Below are positions 35,870 to 45,577 of a DNA stretch of 64,000 nt, one piece after another. The notes under the pieces were generated by a model that saw only the letters and a list, made by a program, of their open reading frames with translations, searched no databases and had not been told where the DNA came from. The DNA comes from Mariniphaga sp. (GTDB lineage: Bacteria > Bacteroidota > Bacteroidia > Bacteroidales > Prolixibacteraceae). Position numbers and translations under genes: made by a program. The first letter of the stretch is position 1; each line of letters begins with the position of its first letter. Location: positions 1 through 64,000 of the forward strand of contig JAHYIT010000002.1 in assembly GCA_019429205.1 (NCBI GenBank), in the 5' to 3' direction.

Positions 35870-38161
35870 ATGAATAAAAGTCTGTTATATATTTTTTTTA
35901 TCCTGCTTTTTGCTGTTGAAATTTCGGCCCAGTCGGTTGGACTGGTTTTAAGTGGCGGTGGCGCCAAAGGGATTGCACACATTGAAGTCATTCGGACTTT
36001 GGAAGAAAATAATATTCCCATCGATTACATTGCAGGAACTTCCATAGGTGCCATTGTTGGAGGATTGTATGCTGCCGGATATTCGCCTGATGAAATGGAA
36101 GACCTGTTCCGTTCAGATGATTTTTATTTCTGGTCAACCGGACGGATTCAAAAAGAATACAGGTATTTTTTCACACGCCCCGAGCCAGACCCGTCGTGGC
36201 TGGAACTTCGGATAGCCCGGCAGGAAGATAAACTGACTTTACTTCCTCCGACAAACATCATTCCTGAAAAACAAATGGATTTTGCTTTTATGGAACTGCT
36301 TGCAACTACCAATGCAGCCTGCACAAACAATTTCGACAGCCTGATGGTTCCGTTTTTTTGTGTAGCTACCGATGTACATACTAACCAGCCGGTAGTTTTA
36401 CGAAAAGGGGATTTGGGTGAGGCAATCAGAGCTTCCATGACATTCCCGCTCTATTTTAAAGCCATTCAAATAGACGGAAAATTATTGTTCGATGGAGGTA
36501 TTGTAAATAATTTCCCTCAAGACCTTATGGAAGATATTTACAATCCTGATTTTATTATTGGACACAAAGTTGCAGATGATACAAAATTACCTGGCACAGA
36601 CAACCTGATGGAACAGATTACCAACCTGGTTATGCGACCTACAAGCTATGAAATTCAACCGGAAAAAGGAATTTTTATGGAAACTAGGTTGCAAAATGTC
36701 AGCTTGCTCGATTTTCAGAAATACGACCAAATTGCCAGTGAAGGAAGGAAAACGGCAAACCAGTTTATTGACAGCATAAAAACCCGGATTAACAGAAGAG
36801 TGGCTTCTGACAAAATAACAAAAAAAAGAGAGGAATTTAATACAAAAAAACCGGAACTCTATTTTCAAAATGTGCAGGTAGAAGGAGTTACCGACCCTAT
36901 GCAACGTAAATTTATCATCCAGTCCATAAAACACCGGTACAACATTGTTTCGTTAGGTGAGTTGAAAAAGGAATACTTTAAATTAATTGCCGATGAACAT
37001 CTGAAATCAATCAGGCCCGTTGCCTATTACAATACTGAAACAGGATATTATGATTTGCACCTGAAAGTGGAGCCGGAAAAAAAGATGCGGATAAACATAG
37101 GTGGAAACATTTCAACCAAACCTATTAACCAGGGATTTGCCAGTTTCGATTACCGCACATACCAGGGCCGGGCTTACACGTTGAGTTCAAATATCTATTT
37201 TGGAAGATTTTACAGTTCTTTTAAAGTGGGTGGCCGAATCGATTTTCCAACATCCCTCCCCTTTTATATTGCCGGATATTCAACATTAAACCGTTGGGAT
37301 TTTTTCTCTTCCAGTTCCGAACTGTTTTTCGAAGACGTACGTCCTCCATATATTATTCAGGATGAATACAATTTGCGCTTCGAAGCTGGTATTCCACTGG
37401 GCCTCCATTCCAAATTATGCGCCGAGGGGGCTTTTGCCAATTCTACAGACGAATATTACCAAACCGATATTTTCAAAAAAGAAGATATTCCGGATGAAAC
37501 AACTTTTAATGCATTTGCAAGTAGTGTTTGCCTTGAAAACAATTCACTCAATTTTAAACAATTTGCCACCGAAGGAGAACATATTGCACTTATTTTCAAA
37601 TACATTGCAGGCAGAGAAACGAATAAGCCAGGAACAACTTCAGCCGCAACGGCAAAAACCAATCGTTATCACGACTATTTTATGTTGCAGGCCCAATCAA
37701 CCAGGTACTACAACATAATCAGAAACATCACCCTGGGAACTCAGATGGAAGGTGTTTACAGCAATAAAAAATTATTCCAAAATTACCGTTCTACCATGTT
37801 AAGTTCTCCTGGTTATTATCCTACGCCACACAGCCGGTCGCTGTTTATTGAGAATTTTCATTCGAATAATTACCTTGCCGGAGGGATCAAACTGCTTTAT
37901 CATTTTAATCCCTCGCTCCATTTACGGCTCGAAGGACATGTTTTTGTACCGGTTAAAGAGGAGTTGCCAAATGAGGATTTAACCGCTTTCCAAAATGCCA
38001 CATATTTTTCCAATTACTATTTGCAAGGGATGGCGGCATTGGTTTACCACACAGGAGTTGGCCCAGTAGGTCTTTCTCTTAGTTATTACGAAAAACCAAA
38101 CACCGACTTATACCTGACATTAAATTTCGGATATATCCTCTTTAATAAAAGGGGTTACTAA
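35870..38161 (+). CDS. Patatin-like phospholipase with outer-membrane barrel
   Basis: A 763-aa exported protein. Signal peptide of about 20 residues, then a patatin domain (about residues 22-300) with the oxyanion hole GGGAKG, the nucleophile Ser58 in GTSIG and the second catalytic Asp208 in FDGG. A POTRA-like segment (PELYFQNVQVEGVTDP onward, about 330-400) and a C-terminal BamA/Omp85-type 16-strand barrel follow, ending in strands such as LYLTLNFGYILF. The architecture is that of type Vd-like patatin proteins, which expose or release a lipase through their own barrel. Phospholipase activity on membrane lipids is expected. It converges with a dsrE gene (four-base overlap of ends). Confidence 0.88.
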   Translation: MNKSLLYIFFILLFAVEISAQSVGLVLSGGGAKGIAHIEVIRTLEENNIPIDYIAGTSIGAIVGGLYAAGYSPDEMEDLFRSDDFYFWSTGRIQKEYRYFFTRPEPDPSWLELRIARQEDKLTLLPPTNIIPEKQMDFAFMELLATTNAACTNNFDSLMVPFFCVATDVHTNQPVVLRKGDLGEAIRASMTFPLYFKAIQIDGKLLFDGGIVNNFPQDLMEDIYNPDFIIGHKVADDTKLPGTDNLMEQITNLVMRPTSYEIQPEKGIFMETRLQNVSLLDFQKYDQIASEGRKTANQFIDSIKTRINRRVASDKITKKREEFNTKKPELYFQNVQVEGVTDPMQRKFIIQSIKHRYNIVSLGELKKEYFKLIADEHLKSIRPVAYYNTETGYYDLHLKVEPEKKMRINIGGNISTKPINQGFASFDYRTYQGRAYTLSSNIYFGRFYSSFKVGGRIDFPTSLPFYIAGYSTLNRWDFFSSSSELFFEDVRPPYIIQDEYNLRFEAGIPLGLHSKLCAEGAFANSTDEYYQTDIFKKEDIPDETTFNAFASSVCLENNSLNFKQFATEGEHIALIFKYIAGRETNKPGTTSAATAKTNRYHDYFMLQAQSTRYYNIIRNITLGTQMEGVYSNKKLFQNYRSTMLSSPGYYPTPHSRSLFIENFHSNNYLAGGIKLLYHFNPSLHLRLEGHVFVPVKEELPNEDLTAFQNATYFSNYYLQGMAALVYHTGVGPVGLSLSYYEKPNTDLYLTLNFGYILFNKRGY

Positions 38162-38514
38162 AACGTAATCACCTTGTCGCTGTCAACTACCCACTGGGTA
38201 AGTTCTGCCATGGTGCTGATTTCAGTACCTTTAATAAGCTCAGCGTTTTTCAATCCACGGGAATCGGCGCAAGAGCCGCAAATTTTTACTTTAGCGCCTT
38301 TGTTAATGGATAATTTCATCATTCGTTCGATATTGTAATACCCGTTGGGCGTGGATTGACCGGCAACGGCGCACGATGCTGCATCGGCCATTAAAAAAAT
38401 CCGCACTTCCACATCTTCGTGGGCTTTGTTTAACTGGTTAGCCAGGCGTAATCCGTTGTAAGCTTTTTCTGTTCCGTAAGGTCCGTCGTTAATTAAAATC
38501 AAAATTTTTTGCAT
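38158..38514 (-). CDS. DsrE family protein, cytoplasmic
   Basis: A 118-aa DsrE/TusD-like protein: KILILINDGPYGTEKAYNGLRLA, VEVRIFLMADAASCAVAG and the conserved KICGSCADSRGL with a CxxC (about residues 79-82). The DsrE fold carries persulfide sulfur on a Cys in relay systems. It lacks a signal peptide and is the last gene of a leftward run that contains a second, exported DsrE protein, a cysteine desulfurase and an ArsR-rhodanese regulator, so sulfur transfer is the likely job. It starts 11 bp after the exported homologue. Confidence 0.85.
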   Translation of the reverse strand: MQKILILINDGPYGTEKAYNGLRLANQLNKAHEDVEVRIFLMADAASCAVAGQSTPNGYYNIERMMKLSINKGAKVKICGSCADSRGLKNAELIKGTEISTMAELTQWVVDSDKVITF

Positions 38515-38525
38515 GTTGTTCTTTT

Positions 38526-38954
38526 TTAAAATGTTAATACAATTTTGTTTTTACGAATCACGGCGTATAAATCGGCCAGTGATGAAAAAGTGCAAATTTG
38601 GGGTCCGTCCATATTGCGGCTTTGCAAGCACGTGCCACAACCCTGAATTTGGCCACCTTTTCCAAGAAAAGCATCAACCTGTTCTTTCAAATCTTTGTTT
38701 TCTTTCACCAGATTATCTACTTCCACCCCTTTTGCAAGGAGGAAAATCTGAACTGTGTCGCCCTGGTTTTTTGAGTGGTTGGCCAGCCTGAATGCATTCC
38801 AAACTGTTTCAACATCGTTGGAGTAAATGACCATTCCGATGGATGTGGGTGAGTGCTTTTTTTTCTGTGGCTGAGGATTAAACTGCTCCTGTGCCGAAAT
38901 GCTGTATGCCAGAAACAGTAAAATAACGGTTAGTGAAAAGATTGCTTTTTTCAT
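38526..38954 (-). CDS. DsrE family protein, exported
   Basis: A 142-aa DsrE-type protein with a signal peptide (MKKAIFSLTVILLFLA then SISAQ, cleavage near residue 21). The domain contains IGMVIYSNDVETVWNAFRLA, VQIFLLAKGVEVDNL and GCGTCLQSRNMDG with a CxxC in the same place as in its cytoplasmic neighbour. The pair therefore seems to arise from duplication, with one copy moved to the periplasm. A role in handling periplasmic sulfane sulfur is inferred from the operon. The gap to the desulfurase gene is 23 bp. Confidence 0.83.
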   Translation of the reverse strand: MKKAIFSLTVILLFLAYSISAQEQFNPQPQKKKHSPTSIGMVIYSNDVETVWNAFRLANHSKNQGDTVQIFLLAKGVEVDNLVKENKDLKEQVDAFLGKGGQIQGCGTCLQSRNMDGPQICTFSSLADLYAVIRKNKIVLTF

Positions 38955-38977
38955 AAAAATTGAGTTATTAAAATGAT

Positions 38978-40117
38978 TTATACTAATTTATTTACAGTTT
39001 CCGAAATGATTTCAACAGCCCGGTCGATTTCATCTTTTGTGGTGAATTTACCCGTTGAAATACGCACCGTTCCGGCGGCTGTTTTCCGGTCGGTTTGCAT
39101 GGCTTTTAACACCGGCGATATTTCAATGGAATCGGCATGGCAGGCCGAACCGATTGAAAAACTTACCTCGCTGCTGACAAATGACGCCAGCGTATGCGCT
39201 TCAACCCCGTCGAATGCAATGCTCAAAGTATTGGGCAGGCAATTATTTGGGTCGGCATTCAGCTTAATTCCGGTCTGTACTTTGCCTTTTAACCCATCCA
39301 ACAAACGTTGCCTCATTTGAAACAGGTGCTGTTTGTTCCCATCCAGATTTTCTTTGGCCAGTTCACAGGCTTTGCCCAGTGCGACAATGTAAGGCACATT
39401 CTCCGTTCCGGGGCGCAATCCATGTTCCTGACCAGCACCAAAAATCAGGTTTTCCAGCTTCACTCCCTTCCGAATATACAGAGCGCCGATGCCTTTTGGT
39501 CCATACAATTTATGCCCGGCAATGGAAAGCAAATCAACATTCAGTTCATTTACATCGGTTTCAATTTTGCCAACCGATTGGGCGGCATCGGTATGGAAAA
39601 GCACACAGTGCTTTTTTGCAATTTCCCCCATTTCTTTTATGGGCTGAATGGTGCCCACTTCGTTGTTGGCGTGCATAATGGAAATCAGCACGGTATCGGG
39701 CCGAACTGCTTTTTCAATAGCTGCCGGGTTTACTTTCCCGAAGGCATCAACCGGGACCCAGGTAATTTCGTAACCCTGTTTTTCCAGGTAGTTGCAAACC
39801 TCCGTCACTGCCGGATGTTCAACCTCCGAAGTGATAATGTGTTTGCCTTTTTGCTGATTGGAAAAAACTGCCCCCCGGATGGCATGGTTGTTCGATTCAG
39901 TGCCACCGCTGGCAAAAATGATTTCTTCGGGCAAAGCGCCGATAAGGTTTGCAACCTGCATCCGCGCCTTTTCCATGGCTTCCTTGTTGTGCCTTCCACT
40001 GGCGTAACTGCTGGAAGGATTCCCAAAATGCGCCTGAAAATATGGCAACATTTCCTCTGCCACTTCCGGGGCAATAGGCGTGGTAGCGTTATAATCAAGA
40101 TAAATTGGTCCGCTCAT
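38978..40117 (-). CDS. Cysteine desulfurase (NifS/IscS type)
   Basis: A 379-aa PLP-dependent enzyme from the ATG at 40117, whose sequence begins MSGPIYLDYNATTP; an upstream in-frame ATG at 40156 would overlap the regulator gene by 34 bases. PLP-binding motifs: HTDAAQSVGK and the Schiff-base Lys in SIAGHKLYGPKGIG. The active-site Cys is in FSIGSACHADSIEISPVL, followed by VRISTGKFTT. It converts cysteine to alanine and an enzyme persulfide. There is no IscU or NifU scaffold gene beside it; instead two DsrE proteins and a rhodanese-bearing regulator are its neighbours. This suggests sulfur relay rather than Fe-S assembly as its local role. Confidence 0.9.
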   Translation of the reverse strand: MSGPIYLDYNATTPIAPEVAEEMLPYFQAHFGNPSSSYASGRHNKEAMEKARMQVANLIGALPEEIIFASGGTESNNHAIRGAVFSNQQKGKHIITSEVEHPAVTEVCNYLEKQGYEITWVPVDAFGKVNPAAIEKAVRPDTVLISIMHANNEVGTIQPIKEMGEIAKKHCVLFHTDAAQSVGKIETDVNELNVDLLSIAGHKLYGPKGIGALYIRKGVKLENLIFGAGQEHGLRPGTENVPYIVALGKACELAKENLDGNKQHLFQMRQRLLDGLKGKVQTGIKLNADPNNCLPNTLSIAFDGVEAHTLASFVSSEVSFSIGSACHADSIEISPVLKAMQTDRKTAAGTVRISTGKFTTKDEIDRAVEIISETVNKLV

Positions 40118-40122
40118 TCTTT

Positions 40123-40782
40123 TTACTGATTTGATTCCAGTTGCCTCATTTTCCATTCAGGATAGCCTTCGTCCAATCTTCTGACTTTAAACCCGTTTTC
40201 AGAAAGTATTCGCACCGCTTCATCAGCCAAAACACAAAATGGTCCGCGGCAGTATGCAATAATTTCCTGCTCTTTCGAAAAATCTTTCAGACAACACAGT
40301 AATTCGTTCATAGGCACAGAAACCGCCCCGGTAATGTGGTCGAACTCGTATTCTGCCGAGGGCCTGACATCCATCAACAATACATTTTTGTTGTGAATCA
40401 TCATTTCCAGTTCGTCAAGGCTTACCGGGTTGAGCGCTTTATTGTCTTCGCGTTGCCGGTTCAACGTTTTCTCCAGTTCGGCAATTTCGGTAACGGCGTA
40501 TTTCGTAATGTGTTGGTAAAGCGCCAGAAATTCGCTATTCACAAGGGAATAATAAACGTAATGTCCTTCTTTCCTGAATTTCACAATGTTGTTGTTTTTG
40601 AGCACCTGCAGGTGTTGCGAAGCATTAGCCACTGTCAGGTTGGTGGCTGCCACAACCCCTTCCACGCTCTTTTCACCTTGCGAAAGCATTTCGATGATTT
40701 CCAATCGGGCAGGGTTGGCCAGGGCTTTCATCAATTTTGCAAGCCCATCGTACATGGCATCTTTGAATTCACGTCCTTTCAT
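40123..40782 (-). CDS. ArsR-family regulator fused to a rhodanese domain
   Basis: A 219-aa two-domain protein. Residues 8-100 form an ArsR/SmtB winged helix (LMKALANPARLEIIEML, VANASQHLQVLKNN, GHYVYYSLVN). Residues 125-212 form a rhodanese domain (LLMDVRPSAEYEFDHITGA) with its active loop in YCRGPFCVLADEA. The winged helix has no cysteine, so metal or thiol sensing through the classical ArsR sites is unlikely; the rhodanese Cys is the obvious sensor of persulfide. It heads an operon with a desulfurase and two DsrE genes, and its own promoter carries an inverted repeat over the -33 box. Confidence 0.9.
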   Translation of the reverse strand: MKGREFKDAMYDGLAKLMKALANPARLEIIEMLSQGEKSVEGVVAATNLTVANASQHLQVLKNNNIVKFRKEGHYVYYSLVNSEFLALYQHITKYAVTEIAELEKTLNRQREDNKALNPVSLDELEMMIHNKNVLLMDVRPSAEYEFDHITGAVSVPMNELLCCLKDFSKEQEIIAYCRGPFCVLADEAVRILSENGFKVRRLDEGYPEWKMRQLESNQ

Positions 40783-40804
40783 TTTCTTCGTTTTAACGAT
40801 TTGG

Positions 40805-40847
40805 CAAATATAACACTTAATTCAATTATTCAAGAGATTTGTTGAAT
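40805..40847 (-). promoter_or_regulatory. Promoter and operator of the ArsR-rhodanese sulfur operon
   Basis: On the minus strand: -33 TTG (complement of 40831-40833), an 18-base spacer and -7 TATATTTG (complement of 40805-40812). An inverted repeat, ATTCAA-N8-TTGAAT at 40828-40847, covers the -33 element; its flanks extend the match by several bases with one unpaired base. The position fits repression by the ArsR-type protein encoded at once downstream. Confidence 0.65.
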
Positions 40848-40921
40848 AAATTGAAAAACTTTAATTCTTCAAATATCAGGATTCTGATAATGGCAAGCAG
40901 GAATTATTCGTCATTTAAAAC

Positions 40922-40952
40922 TTGACCATCCGCGGTTAGTTTTTTATCTTTG
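40922..40952 (+). promoter_or_regulatory. Promoter of the macro-domain gene
   Basis: TTG at 40922-40924 and TATCTTTG at 40945-40952, with a 20-base spacer, are a near-perfect Bacteroidetes promoter. The ATG is 17 bases beyond the -7 box, so the 5' leader should be very short. Confidence 0.6.
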
Positions 40953-40969
40953 AGGGTAAAATTTCAAAA

Positions 40970-41509
40970 ATGAACACCATGAAAAAACAGTTAGGTGAAA
41001 TGACATTGGAAGCCGTTCATGGTGACATTGCCAATCAGCCCGACATGAAGGCCATAGTGAATGCAGCTAATGCTGAATTAATGCCGGGAGGCGGTGTGGC
41101 AGGAGCTATTCACCGTGCAGCCGGTCCCGGGCTTGCCGAAGAGTGCCGGCCTATGGCGCCCATCGAACCCGGAGAAGCGGTCATTTCCGGTGCACACCAA
41201 CTTCCCAACACATACGTTATTCATTGCCTCGGTCCGGTTTACGGAATGGATAAGCCCGAAAACAAGCTTCTGGCCGAATGCTACCGAAATGCCCTGCAGC
41301 TAGCCGACGAAAAACAAATTGATTCCGTTGCATTTCCCGCTATTTCCACAGGCGCATTCGGTTATCCTTTTGATGCAGCAACTGATATTGCCCTGCAAAC
41401 CATACTGGAAGTTATTCCTGATTTAAAAGTTGTCCGGCACATTCGTTTTGTACTTTTTGGTGAAGAAGATTTTGAGGTTTATGTGGGAAGATTGAGAAGG
41501 TTAAAATAA
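40970..41509 (+). CDS. Macro-domain protein, ADP-ribose deacetylase-like
   Basis: A 179-aa single macro domain of the YmdB/MacroD type: VHGDIANQPDMKAIVNAANAEL, recognisable by GDIA and IVNAANAELMPGGGVAGAIH, then HCLGPVYG and AFPAISTGAFGYP for phosphate contacts. Relatives remove ADP-ribose from acidic residues and deacetylate O-acetyl-ADP-ribose. A second ATG at 40979 (MKKQLGEM) is an alternative start. It stands alone between the divergent sulfur operon and convergent TauE/DoxX sequence. No ADP-ribosyltransferase gene was seen in the window. Confidence 0.88.
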   Translation: MNTMKKQLGEMTLEAVHGDIANQPDMKAIVNAANAELMPGGGVAGAIHRAAGPGLAEECRPMAPIEPGEAVISGAHQLPNTYVIHCLGPVYGMDKPENKLLAECYRNALQLADEKQIDSVAFPAISTGAFGYPFDAATDIALQTILEVIPDLKVVRHIRFVLFGEEDFEVYVGRLRRLK

Positions 41510-41602
41510 ATTATAGTCCAGTGACCACTTTCCTGCCCCGTAAATCAACAAAAATATCAGTAGCATGGTCATGGCAAAATCGGTTCGGGCGGCGTGGGCC
41601 AT
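41501..41602 (-). pseudogene. DoxX family C-terminal remnant
   Basis: On the minus strand an ATG-started frame of 33 codons ends at 41501-41503, just inside the macro-domain gene end. It reads MAHAARTDFAM, then a hydrophobic helix and YGAGKWSLDYNLF. The motif G-x-G-K/R-W/Y-S-L-D after a last membrane helix is characteristic of the C-terminus of DoxX family membrane proteins. The remaining three helices are missing. It follows the TauE/SafE gene directly, so a TauE-DoxX operon may have lost most of its second gene. Confidence 0.45.
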
Positions 41603-41616
41603 AAACCAGATAAGAC

Positions 41617-42390
41617 TTAAATGATTCCGGTTCCCAGTCCGATTGAAATAAAAATCAGCATTACAACCACCAAAATTTGAACGGCCTTGAAAGTTACTTT
41701 TTTCAGTAACTTTTTCCCTGCAAAAGCGCCTGCAATGGCAGCCAGGGTTGCGGAAACAAGCAATACCACATTCTCCGACAAACCAGAGGAAGTAAACCGT
41801 GACGCATATACCGACAACCTCGTGATGTCAACCAGAGAAGCAATGATAACGCCGGTGGCAATAAATGCCTCTTTGGTAAGTCCGCTTTTAATTAAAAAAG
41901 CACTCCGGAAAGCGCCCTGAATACCGGCAAGGCCACCGAAAAAACCACTTAGCACGCCACCAAGTATAAGCCGGTTTCCGCCAAACTCAATTTTTTGTAA
42001 AACCGGCAAAACCTCGAGCAGGGAGAAAAACAGCAGTAAAATAGCGATGATAAGCTTTACGGGAGTAATTTCGAAAGTATTTCCCCACAATTCATATTCG
42101 TAAACCGAGGGTAATCCGGTAATCCGGATCAAAATCCACGCACCGGCAAAAGAAGACAGAATGGCCGGTATGCCAAACCGGATGAGCACCGGTTTGCTGG
42201 CCATTTTTCCCACCAGGCCTATTTTGAAAATATTGTTTATAAAATGTACCACACCTGTTAATGCAATGGCAATGTCCACAGGAAAAAACAGGGCAAAAAC
42301 CGGCATTAAAATGGTACCAAGCCCAAACCCGGAAAAAAAAGTTAGAATGGCGGTAAAAAATGCGGCGATACTAATAATTACGATTTCCAT
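41617..42390 (-). CDS. TauE/SafE family anion permease
   Basis: A 257-aa polytopic protein of the sulfite exporter TauE/SafE family (DUF81): FFSGFGLGTILMPVFALFF near the N-terminus, the mid-protein repeat GGVLSGFFGGLAGIQGAFRSAFLIKSG, recognisable by GFFGGLAGIQG, and about eight hydrophobic helices. Members export sulfite, sulfoacetate or other sulfur anions. It is near, but not cotranscribed with, the ArsR-rhodanese operon, since the macro gene lies between on the other strand. A link to sulfur metabolism is suggestive only. Confidence 0.85.
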   Translation of the reverse strand: MEIVIISIAAFFTAILTFFSGFGLGTILMPVFALFFPVDIAIALTGVVHFINNIFKIGLVGKMASKPVLIRFGIPAILSSFAGAWILIRITGLPSVYEYELWGNTFEITPVKLIIAILLLFFSLLEVLPVLQKIEFGGNRLILGGVLSGFFGGLAGIQGAFRSAFLIKSGLTKEAFIATGVIIASLVDITRLSVYASRFTSSGLSENVVLLVSATLAAIAGAFAGKKLLKKVTFKAVQILVVVMLIFISIGLGTGII

Positions 42391-42668: not shown

Positions 42669-44495
42669 CTATTTCTTTTTATAACACTTTATCCATTCTG
42701 TTTGAAAACGAACCGGCAACAGAGAACCCGGAACCTGGCTGATCACCAGACTAAAAAGGCTAATATGAAGCGGAAAATCAATATGTCTGTTTTCCAGTCT
42801 TAGCACCTCTGTTTCGTTAATCTTCCAAACCAAACTATTGTCCGATTTTTCCAGTGTAAAAATGTACCATTTCCCTTTTTTCAGGTTTGAAATATCCAGT
42901 CCATTTATTGTCAGTTTTCCCTTTTCGTTCTGCGATGAAATTCCAATCCGGTTTTTTGCGCCCATTTCAAGTAAATAAATTCCGGGGTAGGCTTTTTCTC
43001 CCTGCAAAACAAAAGAACTAACTGTTTCTTTTACCGGATTGAATTTTATTTTGGCTTCAAAAATTCCATCTTCCTGCCGGAAACTTTTCGCAGTTGAAAC
43101 CAATCCTGAAGTGTAATCAAATTCAGCTGGAATAAAACCAGCAGACATTTTCCAAATCATACCATCAACCTTTTCCTTGCGTGTTTCAATCACCAGTTTC
43201 GATTCACATGTAATATTTTCACCGTTTGTGTAAACATGCAAATCTCCGGGCAAAGAATAATTGCGCCCAATTGCTTTATCAGCCCAGGGTGACAGCGTGG
43301 ACCATTTTTCAACGTCTAACTTTCCTCCCTGAAAAGCATCTTCAAAACTCACATCCCAATAAGTATAAAAATCAAAAGCATCGGTTCCTTTGTATTTAAA
43401 GTATTTTACCAGGTGCGGCCGTTTTTTCATTTCCAGATACTTTTGCTCTCTGGCATATTCTTCCGATTTTCCCCATTTTTTTGAATCTTCGAGGTAGGCT
43501 TTTCGTTTTAAAAAATCTTCGGAAGCAATAAGGCTGCTCAACTCATTAAATCGCTTTAAATCTGCAGAATCAGCCACTTTGTAATAGTTATCAAGCTGTG
43601 GAGACTTTTCAAACTTCAGAAAAAACTTTATATCGTCGCTGGAAGCAAGCTCCTTAAAACGGCTCCAGTTTTTAAAGGCTTCGGTTTTTTCAAATTTCTT
43701 TTTGTCTTTTAAATAATCAATCCTTTTTTTGAATGCTTCGCTTTCAATTTCAACCTTTAATTCTTCAAATCTTTTCAGGTTGTAACTGTCTGCCGTTTCC
43801 CGGTAAAGTTTCAGTTTTTTTGAATGCTCTAATTTCAGGTAGCTTTTAATTTCATTGTCGTTTTTAAGTTTCTTTAATTCGTGTTTCTTTTCCTTGTCTG
43901 CTACCGAAATGTTTTTCAGTTCGAGGTATTTTTTTAGTTTTTCAGTATGCGAAATGGCATCATGGCGTTTTAAAATTTCCGATTGATGCAATTCATAAAA
44001 GATTTTTATTCCGGGCTGTTTTTTCAATTTGTTATATTCTTTTTCCTTACTTTGCTCAACAGAACCTTTAAAAACCAACCGGTGCATTTCTTCCTTCTCT
44101 TTACTAAAATTGCCGTTTTCAACATATTCCTTAAGTTGATGGTATTCTTTCAGTTTATCCGAACCTTTTAGTGTTATAAACCTTTTAAGCTGGGGTGAAT
44201 CTTTCAGTTTAAAATACTTTTTAATATGCCCGGCCTTTTTTAGCTGTTCAAATTCCTTTAGCAATTTTTCTTCCTTACTTCCTTTAAATTGCATTCGTTG
44301 AATTTCCTTTTTCCGGTTAACAAATTCAGCAGATTGAATGAATTTTTCCAAATCCAAATATTCCTTTAACTCGTCAGAATTTTCAACCTGAAGAAATTCC
44401 TGGTAATCATTCCAAAGATTTTTCCGTTGGATTTCAATTTTTTCAACAGGCTTAATTTTGCCTAAAAGTTGAAGGGAAAAGATTTTAAAAGACAT
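42669..44495 (-). CDS. Charged helical repeat protein with GH16-like lectin domain
   Basis: A 608-aa protein with no signal peptide. Residues about 15-385 are extremely rich in Lys and Glu and consist of degenerate helical repeats of roughly 30-40 residues with a shared core of the type LKxYLELxxxxxSxxxK (for example LKEYLDLEKFIQS, HIKKYFKLKDSPQLKRF, EIKSYLKLEHSKKLKLY). Residues about 390-608 are a GH16-like jelly roll: GGKLDVEKWSTL, FDYTSGLVSTAKSFRQEDGIFEAKI, KGKWYIFTLEKSDNSLVWKINETEV, RFQTEWIKCY. The usual catalytic E-I-D-x-x-E is PGIYLLEMG (504-512), so the nucleophile Glu and middle Asp are replaced. I infer a binding rather than hydrolytic role. Confidence 0.75.
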   Translation of the reverse strand: MSFKIFSLQLLGKIKPVEKIEIQRKNLWNDYQEFLQVENSDELKEYLDLEKFIQSAEFVNRKKEIQRMQFKGSKEEKLLKEFEQLKKAGHIKKYFKLKDSPQLKRFITLKGSDKLKEYHQLKEYVENGNFSKEKEEMHRLVFKGSVEQSKEKEYNKLKKQPGIKIFYELHQSEILKRHDAISHTEKLKKYLELKNISVADKEKKHELKKLKNDNEIKSYLKLEHSKKLKLYRETADSYNLKRFEELKVEIESEAFKKRIDYLKDKKKFEKTEAFKNWSRFKELASSDDIKFFLKFEKSPQLDNYYKVADSADLKRFNELSSLIASEDFLKRKAYLEDSKKWGKSEEYAREQKYLEMKKRPHLVKYFKYKGTDAFDFYTYWDVSFEDAFQGGKLDVEKWSTLSPWADKAIGRNYSLPGDLHVYTNGENITCESKLVIETRKEKVDGMIWKMSAGFIPAEFDYTSGLVSTAKSFRQEDGIFEAKIKFNPVKETVSSFVLQGEKAYPGIYLLEMGAKNRIGISSQNEKGKLTINGLDISNLKKGKWYIFTLEKSDNSLVWKINETEVLRLENRHIDFPLHISLFSLVISQVPGSLLPVRFQTEWIKCYKKK

Positions 44496-44707: not shown

Positions 44708-45577
44708 ATGATATTAAATTCGGAATTAATTTTAAACAGCGACGGTACAATTTTCCATTTACACCTGAAACCGGAAAACATTGCAGACCAAATAATTCTG
44801 GTTGGTGATCAGGCACGGGTTGAAATAGTGGCAGGTTTTTTTGACAAGATGGATTTTTCTGTTAAAAACCGGGAATTCAGCACAATAACAGGCTGGTATA
44901 AGGACAAAAAATTTTCGGTTATTTCTACTGGAATCGGTACCGACAATATCGACATAGTATTAAATGAACTGGATGCCCTTGTAAACATAGATTTGGAAAC
45001 GCGGGAAATTAACCATGAAAAAAAATCGCTGAATATAGTGCGGATAGGAACTTCGGGAAGCCTGCAGGAGGATAACCCGGTGAACTCATTTCTTGTTTCG
45101 CAAAAATCAATAGGTTTTGACGGCATGTTAAATTTTTACGCCAACCGTGAACAGGTTTGCGATTTACCCTTTGAAAAAGCGTTTAAACAATTTACCGGTT
45201 GGAACGAATTCCTTCCGACACCTTACGTTGTTGATGCCTCCAGACGCATGATTTCAAAATTCGAAACGCCCGAATTCAGAAAAGGTGTTACCATATCGGC
45301 GCCTGGATTTTACGGACCTCAGGGGCGAGTTTTAAGGCTTCCGTTAGCCATGCCTCAATTGAATAAACTCTTGGAAGAGTTCCGGTTCGAAGACCATAAA
45401 ATTACCAATTTTGAAATGGAAAGTTCAGCCATTTACGGACTTTCAAAGATGCTTGGACACCAGGCATTAACAATTTGCCTGATAATTGCCAACCGGGTAA
45501 CGAAACAGGCCAACGAAAATTACAGGCCGGTAATGGAAGATCTGATTAAAAAAGTGCTGGATAATTTAACAAATTAA
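44708..45577 (+). CDS. Nucleoside phosphorylase (uridine phosphorylase-like)
   Basis: A 289-aa member of the PNP/UDP superfamily: GDQARVEIVAGFFD near the N-terminus, the STGIGTDNIDIVLNEL segment, the phosphate-binding VRIGTSGSLQ, and the substrate-binding TNFEMESSAIYGLSKMLGH (E-M-E-S). It would split a nucleoside with phosphate for salvage of the base and ribose-1-phosphate. Base preference is not determinable; the sequence is nearer uridine phosphorylases than purine enzymes. It is followed seven bases later by a SirB1-like gene in the same direction, so the two are probably cotranscribed. Confidence 0.85.
   Translation: MILNSELILNSDGTIFHLHLKPENIADQIILVGDQARVEIVAGFFDKMDFSVKNREFSTITGWYKDKKFSVISTGIGTDNIDIVLNELDALVNIDLETREINHEKKSLNIVRIGTSGSLQEDNPVNSFLVSQKSIGFDGMLNFYANREQVCDLPFEKAFKQFTGWNEFLPTPYVVDASRRMISKFETPEFRKGVTISAPGFYGPQGRVLRLPLAMPQLNKLLEEFRFEDHKITNFEMESSAIYGLSKMLGHQALTICLIIANRVTKQANENYRPVMEDLIKKVLDNLTN

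Follow-up and report, generated by a model that had tools for sequence, protein, structure and literature searches.

A helical repeat array joined to a GH16-derived pseudoenzyme head: a Bacteroidales protein family with a possible role in intracellular signalling

The window analyzed here is a stretch of 64,000 nucleotides from Mariniphaga sp. (contig JAHYIT010000002.1). It codes for a protein that combines an array of helical repeats with a C-terminal jelly-roll domain and is referred to below as the rod-head protein. The following features were assigned. The five helical units are each based on the structure model, on profile-profile comparison and on a unit model.

42669-44495, minus strand: complete gene for the rod-head protein (608 aa, ATG start, stop codon at 42669-42671)
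44448-44495, minus strand: hydrophobic N-terminal segment MSFKIFSLQLLGKIKP (residues 1-16), conserved in the own taxonomic family (19-sequence alignment)
44163-44378, minus strand: helical unit 1 (residues 40-111)
43947-44162, minus strand: helical unit 2 (residues 112-183)
43788-43946, minus strand: helical unit 3, shortened (residues 184-236)
43569-43787, minus strand: helical unit 4 (residues 237-309)
43383-43568, minus strand: helical unit 5, running into the head (residues 310-371)
42675-43358, minus strand: pseudo-GH16 jelly-roll head (residues 380-607; family profile and fold matches of the model)
42966-42983, minus strand: GIYLLE in place of the catalytic E-I-D-x-x-E (residues 505-510; sequence and family alignment)

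The coordinates of the gene are those of the original prediction, while the strand was corrected to minus, as the plus strand is riddled with stop codons in the matching register. In its own genome (5.12 Mb, 305 contigs), the only match to the protein is the window gene itself. Upstream are a gene of the nucleoside phosphorylase family (PNP_UDP_1, 44708-45577) and a transglutaminase-like gene, both pointing away. A TauE-family exporter gene (41617-42390) is encoded on the same strand, 278 bases 3' of the rod-head gene. It belongs to a block (38158-42390) that lies between a patatin-like gene and the rod-head gene and resembles a sulphur/persulphide response module. Besides the exporter, this block contains an ArsR-rhodanese fusion (40123-40782) and a macro-domain protein (40970-41509), all three with Pfam support, as well as a cysteine desulfurase-like aminotransferase (38978-40156) and two small DsrE-like proteins (38158-38954), which were named by eye. 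When compared to the flanks (up to 6 kb) of the 22 named loci introduced below, only the macro gene recurs, and only in one locus (L002). A scan for sigma-70-type promoters returned seven matches with 7.1 expected, which is chance level, so that no promoter is claimed. A custom Bacteroidota-type promoter pattern matched twice with 5.1 expected, neither match being at the rod-head gene.

The C-terminal domain had been described as GH16-like with replaced catalytic residues, and both statements hold. The family profile matches GH16 laminarinases in the PDB with an E-value of 1.3e-7 (residues 372-571). The head model retrieves GH16 structures in Foldseek (E 4.7e-14) and aligns with laminarinases in VIA (best Z 23.1, 2.4 A, 204 residues). 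The jelly-roll is shared with the laminarinases 3azx, 4dfs, 4crq/ZgLamC and 6jh5 over approximately residues 376-608 (Z 22-23, 2.3-2.5 A; Z 23 and 2.4-2.5 A for the fold assignment as such). The F, W, Y, G and E core residues are common to both families, and the window protein retains the core fold residues F388, W398, Y461, G477 and W557. Searches with the single sequence returned no match to PF00722 at E up to 1 and only a weak glycanase match in NCBIfam (21.2 bits, cut-off 700). Two of the 19 alignment members match PF00722 (best E 2.6e-15).

At the catalytic site, the window protein has GIYLLE, retaining the last Glu (E510) while the first Glu and the Asp are gone. This extends to the whole family: the triad E-x-D-x-x-E is intact in none of the 95 aligned family rows, which represent 92 different proteins if three truncated copies are disregarded. 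A survey of Glu and Asp loss had been proposed; the triad is indeed lost everywhere, while individual residues persist (first Glu in 9, Asp in 35 and last Glu in 43 of the 95 rows), the two Glu never occurring together. As judged by pattern, the motif is intact in 22 of 26 GH16 proteins encoded by other genomes within the class. A Trp and a His, which we take to be GH16 cleft residues, were also scored in the head alignment. All 22 true GH16 enzymes have the Trp, as do 88% of the 41 rows from the remainder of the order, and it is found in 0/54 rows from the own taxonomic family. The corresponding values for the His are 100%, 22% and 0%, and the catalytic Asp is retained in 15% of the own-family rows. 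As far as can be judged from the alignment, the erosion of the active site looks graded across the family. In a tree of 104 GH16 domains, all 82 pseudo-GH16 rows are on one side of a branch with 100/100 support, and the 22 true domains, which had been selected for an intact motif, are on the other. Because the GH16 fold is present and the catalytic motif is not, the head is best called a GH16-derived pseudoenzyme rather than a GH16 enzyme. We consider both the domain layout and the disappearance of this motif as established.

Compared to the GH16 laminarinases, the family thus lacks E-x-D-x-x-E (95/95 rows), the cleft Trp and His (own taxonomic family) and an export signal, and has an added helical array. 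Subfamily GH16_4 includes the beta-glucan recognition and Gram-negative binding proteins, which are extracellular. The noncatalytic beta-glucan recognition proteins are secreted, whereas the rod-head protein has no signal peptide as judged by hydropathy. Rv0315 from Mycobacterium tuberculosis (4wzf), which presumably lacks a helical array, also resembles the head model (Z 20.8). According to an excerpt of PMC4606783, Rv0315 has a GH16 fold, is inactive and is secreted, and both glutamates are present (Glu-171 and Glu-176); the rod-head family, in contrast, is cytoplasmic-looking and never has both. In excerpts of PMC6827312, catalytic residues are stated to be lost in about 9% of GH16_4, in 0.7% of GH16_3 and in 1% of other GH16 members, the noncatalytic GH16_4 proteins being metazoan and fungal. 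The percentages for GH16_3 and the other members contrast with the rod-head family, in which the loss is family-wide.

The N-terminal part had been predicted to consist of charged, degenerate helical repeats. The charge and the repeats are evident: Lys and Glu account for 32% of residues 1-379, and all ten pairwise profile-profile scores between the units (27.8 to 102) exceed the best of 100 column-shuffled controls (15.0). Instead of being merely degenerate, the repeats are countable. Residues 40-371 comprise five related units of about 72 residues, each with five helices in the model. The unit model detects five units in the window protein and none in 93 shuffled arrays. Across 93 distinct family rows (among them L020, which is frame-broken, and L102-L104, which are truncated by locus ends), the number of units varies from 0 to 9 and is correlated with protein length (r = 0.96, 66.5 aa per unit). 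As the array length is so variable, a fixed-length ruler is unlikely. In two proteins of 775 and 786 aa (L089 from G478 and L090 from G479), two similar long stretches were seen by eye within the array. These paired stretches suggest tandem duplication of whole units.

AlphaFold2 modelled the complete protein with a mean pLDDT of 88.8 and a pTM of 0.57 (19-sequence alignment), with 27 helices over residues 3-379; because of this pTM, the relative placing of the domains is unsure. The helical half alone (21 sequences) was modelled with a pLDDT of 90.7. The array helices mostly have 9-14 residues, many with two-residue links, and a Ser or Thr precedes the helix start in 17 of 23 cases. A Foldseek search of the PDB with the array alone returned nothing at E 0.001. 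VIA, which re-examines only the candidates proposed by Foldseek and could therefore miss folds absent from them, gave a best Z of 8.3 at 10.9 A, taken as no match. The top of the VIA list (SMC arms, chemoreceptors and F-BAR domains) superimposes poorly along long stretches, at about 8 A rmsd or worse, and carries little meaning; some lower-ranked rows fit better, over short stretches. SMC arms and chemoreceptor hairpins are elongated and helical like the array and head its weak structural matches, but they consist of long helices while the array has short helices in repeated units. In Pfam, the window protein matches no family at E up to 1, a search that very diverged repeats can escape, and none of the 14 families matched by any of the 19 alignment members is a repeat family. 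Weak matches of single members (DUF4556 at E 0.0005, RepB_C at E 0.003 and others) were taken as chance. For an ordinary coiled coil or a known solenoid, neither Pfam support nor a Foldseek match at E 0.001 was obtained.

The N-terminus of the protein is itself conserved. In the own taxonomic family it reads MSFKIFSLQL-GKIK, and columns 1, 2, 5, 6, 9, 12 and 15 are invariant or nearly so in 19 sequences. Residues 1-20 are predicted with a pLDDT of 82-93 when the head is included in the model and of 57-67 when it is omitted. As confidence is high only with the head present, the models hint that the N-terminus may fold back and pack onto the head. The hydrophobic moment of this segment is low (0.08 in the window protein, low also in most own-family rows), which speaks against a membrane-anchoring amphipathic helix. 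Hydropathy reveals neither a signal peptide nor a membrane helix in the window protein, which agrees with the earlier impression of a cytoplasmic protein that lacks a signal peptide. Among 93 family rows, four of which lack the true N-terminus, a signal-like hydrophobic stretch exceeds the cut-off only once, in a protein with a doubtful start codon. Since signal peptides are essentially absent, the protein is likely cytoplasmic.

With one genome per species, 84,980 species were scanned for a sequence pattern; this type of search recovers only close relatives and yielded 22 loci. Of these, 18 are from Prolixibacteraceae or its genera (Mariniphaga, Tangfeifania, Draconibacterium, Maribellus) and four from MAGs labelled Bacteroidales, Bacteroidetes or Bacteroidota. 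The closest relative is from Mariniphaga anaerophila (70% identity). Within the own taxonomic family, which we take from these names to be Prolixibacteraceae, matches at E 0.001 occur in 125 of 140 genomes, and 123 of them reach E 5e-23 or better. Among good-quality genomes the share is 96 of 103, and 21 of 23 genera are represented. A sample of the order gave matches in 111 of 393 genomes at E 1e-8, with 105 at 6e-20 or better, of which 100 are outside the own family. In a class sample (395 genomes), the helical part occurs in two genomes, both from the order, and the GH16 part alone in 43 others. In a phylum sample (296 genomes, overlapping the class sample), the helical profile matches only its own genome at E 1e-5. 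The proteins thus form one old family that is spread over the order, strongly conserved and apparently undescribed: no family of this kind is named in Pfam, in NCBIfam or in the open-access PMC literature searched. PADLOC models (E up to 0.01) returned no family for the rod-head protein and none for one PAS partner (see below).

Close pairs show strong purifying selection. In the three closest pairs, which are one trio of Draconibacterium-type sequences, dN/dS is 0.055-0.063 for the array and 0.037-0.054 for the head. In four further pairs, synonymous sites are close to or beyond saturation, and the head dN/dS is 0.054-0.125 where computable. The upper value is that of the window gene and its nearest relative, with synonymous sites near saturation and no value obtained for the array. 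A few copies are damaged. The gene from Draconibacterium orientale FH5T (L020) is frame-broken by small insertions and deletions relative to a close relative, and the genes from two further genomes (G431, G435) have stops or breaks. These frame-broken copies reflect either real decay or sequencing error.

In half of the genomes of the taxonomic family (70 of 140, E 1e-15), a gene for a lone PAS domain of about 110 aa is present. In 69 of these 70 genomes, it is located within 350 bases 3' of the rod-head gene on the same strand, and in 55 of the 69 the gap (to the aligned part) is 8-28 bases. The seventieth PAS gene is 252 bases from a contig end, in a genome with no rod-head gene listed. The PAS gene is thus not seen apart from the rod-head gene. 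The converse fails, as the rod-head gene often lacks the PAS gene. Of 51 own-family rows, 20 are without the latter, and the tree of these rows requires a minimum of about 10 gains or losses; no gene of this kind was found in 40 regions from the order. It is also missing from the window's genome (whole genome, E 0.001) and from its three genus mates. A relic beside the window gene was considered and rejected, since a six-frame profile search of open stretches of at least 40 aa in the window found none.

The assignment of the PAS partner is based on Pfam (PAS_4 with 27.1 bits against a cut-off of 23.1 for one member; hits at E up to 0.01 for 17 of the 18 members). A sequence search of the PDB returned nothing at E 0.01. 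There are 16 invariant columns in 18 sequences, including Cys14, Cys47 and His48. The protein shares its domain with PAS-domain sensors (PAS_4, PAS_9) but differs from them in being a lone domain that lacks an output domain and in being found only at the rod-head locus.

Other signalling genes occur upstream. Among same-strand upstream neighbours within 100 nt, signalling genes were found in 7 of 12 loci as opposed to 5 of 141 control pairs taken from these regions, where the loci are related and the cut-off and seeds were chosen after the neighbours were known. One non-signalling neighbour, at 101 nt, is just past the cut-off. When loci are collapsed by eye to lineages, 3 of 8 remain (binomial p 0.002). 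Directly upstream on the same strand, a PAS histidine kinase is encoded in an own-family locus (L095), and cNMP-binding histidine kinases in L118 and L122. An OmpR-type response regulator is upstream in L133, after a kinase, and in L134, there assigned by similarity only. SiaC is encoded directly upstream in L130 and L135, with kinase and regulator genes farther up. In L130, the histidine kinase, the OmpR-type regulator and SiaC were all assigned by Pfam, as were the kinase and SiaC in L135. We take this setting to be unlike the Pseudomonas siaABCD operon. Over 60 regions (L082-L101, L110-L149), ten have the PAS gene, seven a close-upstream signalling gene and 43 neither. Left out of the count were a SpoIIE-type phosphatase 567 nt upstream of the rod-head gene (L111, 2701-4572) and small divergent receiver-type regulators near it in L132 (4232-4621, by Pfam) and L149 (4205-4594, by eye). 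A neighbouring open frame in L101 (7519-8244, from G251) contains a run of unknown residues.

The reading we tentatively favour is that of a cytoplasmic, non-catalytic scaffold linked to signalling, whose pseudo-GH16 head binds a partner. The cytoplasmic location is supported by the lack of a signal peptide and from neighbours that act in intracellular signalling; the step from anatomy to function is inferred. The head would be a binding module, and the array would be a stalk or scaffold that sets the reach and offers repeated docking surfaces. In this way, the rod-head protein would serve intracellular signalling. In much of the family, it may work with the dedicated one-domain PAS protein. 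A histidine kinase, a response regulator or a SiaC-type phosphoprotein may take the place of this partner in some other lineages. The genus of the window would have lost the PAS partner, so that the protein acts alone or with partners encoded elsewhere.

Four alternatives were weighed. It is unlikely that the protein binds glycans inside the cell, the head holding but not cleaving a polysaccharide or a sugar nucleotide, either stored or on its way to export, and the rod clustering the bound glycan, by a putative analogy to animal beta-glucan recognition proteins. The fold of the head fits, noncatalytic GH16 binding proteins exist in GH16_4 (excerpt of PMC6827312), and the cleft Trp persists in most rows from elsewhere in the order. 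In addition, the third gene upstream resembles a TIM-barrel sugar isomerase (named by eye) in 5 of the 22 named loci. However, no other carbohydrate gene was recognized in the 16 largest neighbour clusters, most of which were named by eye. That all 54 own-family rows lack both the cleft Trp and the cleft His, and that few of them retain the Asp, speaks against a canonical binding mode. Also, the inactive Rv0315 did not bind laminarin in calorimetry, according to the excerpt of PMC4606783. The description of the head as a sugar-binding-type fold thus stands for the fold, while sugar binding should not be read into it.

A structural role, with cytoskeleton-like filaments or spacers in the cytoplasm and incidental neighbour genes, we regard as improbable. 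Rod-like repeats in variable copy number, a near-universal presence, with 96 of 103 good genomes of the taxonomic family having the gene, and the 43 of 60 regions that have neither a PAS gene nor a close signalling gene are consistent with it. It leaves unexplained, however, why the PAS gene depends on the locus, and some members have only 0-1 units.

Even the charge of the array could matter, if it bound a polyanion (nucleic acid, polyphosphate or the inner membrane) while the head acted as a dimerization or regulatory domain, which we consider quite improbable. The net charge of the array is +23 in the window protein and is positive in 83 of 92 family rows (median +13). Members from elsewhere in the order are, however, weakly basic (median +6.5), with some being negative (down to -27), and the low N-terminal hydrophobic moment does not indicate an amphipathic helix that binds the membrane.

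Export from the cell or to its surface by some unrecognized route, with an extracellular role for the head, is very improbable: most GH16 proteins are extracellular and one of the 19 members matches the Pfam type IX secretion tail (Por_Secre_tail, E 0.069, taken as chance), but there is neither a signal peptide nor a membrane helix, the chain terminates with the GH16 domain (19-sequence alignment), and the partners are intracellular signalling domains.

Returning to a signalling-linked cytoplasmic scaffold, it is tempting to speculate, with considerable doubt, that it represents a new scaffold type. This would have a cytoplasmic, non-catalytic GH16 docking head and a modular stalk of five-helix units that are gained and lost as a whole. 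The same doubt attaches to its control by swappable sensor partners, for which the lone PAS protein, histidine kinases with a PAS or cNMP-binding domain, response regulators and SiaC would be the candidates.

What can be said of the family is that, spread over an order, it keeps the GH16 fold without its chemistry and is apparently intracellular, while catalytic loss in GH16 is reported to be rare outside GH16_4. The repeat array is a natural length series for the study of helical-repeat evolution. If the link to PAS, kinase and SiaC proteins is true, the rod-head family would point to a signalling component inside the cells of environmental Bacteroidota that has so far gone undescribed.
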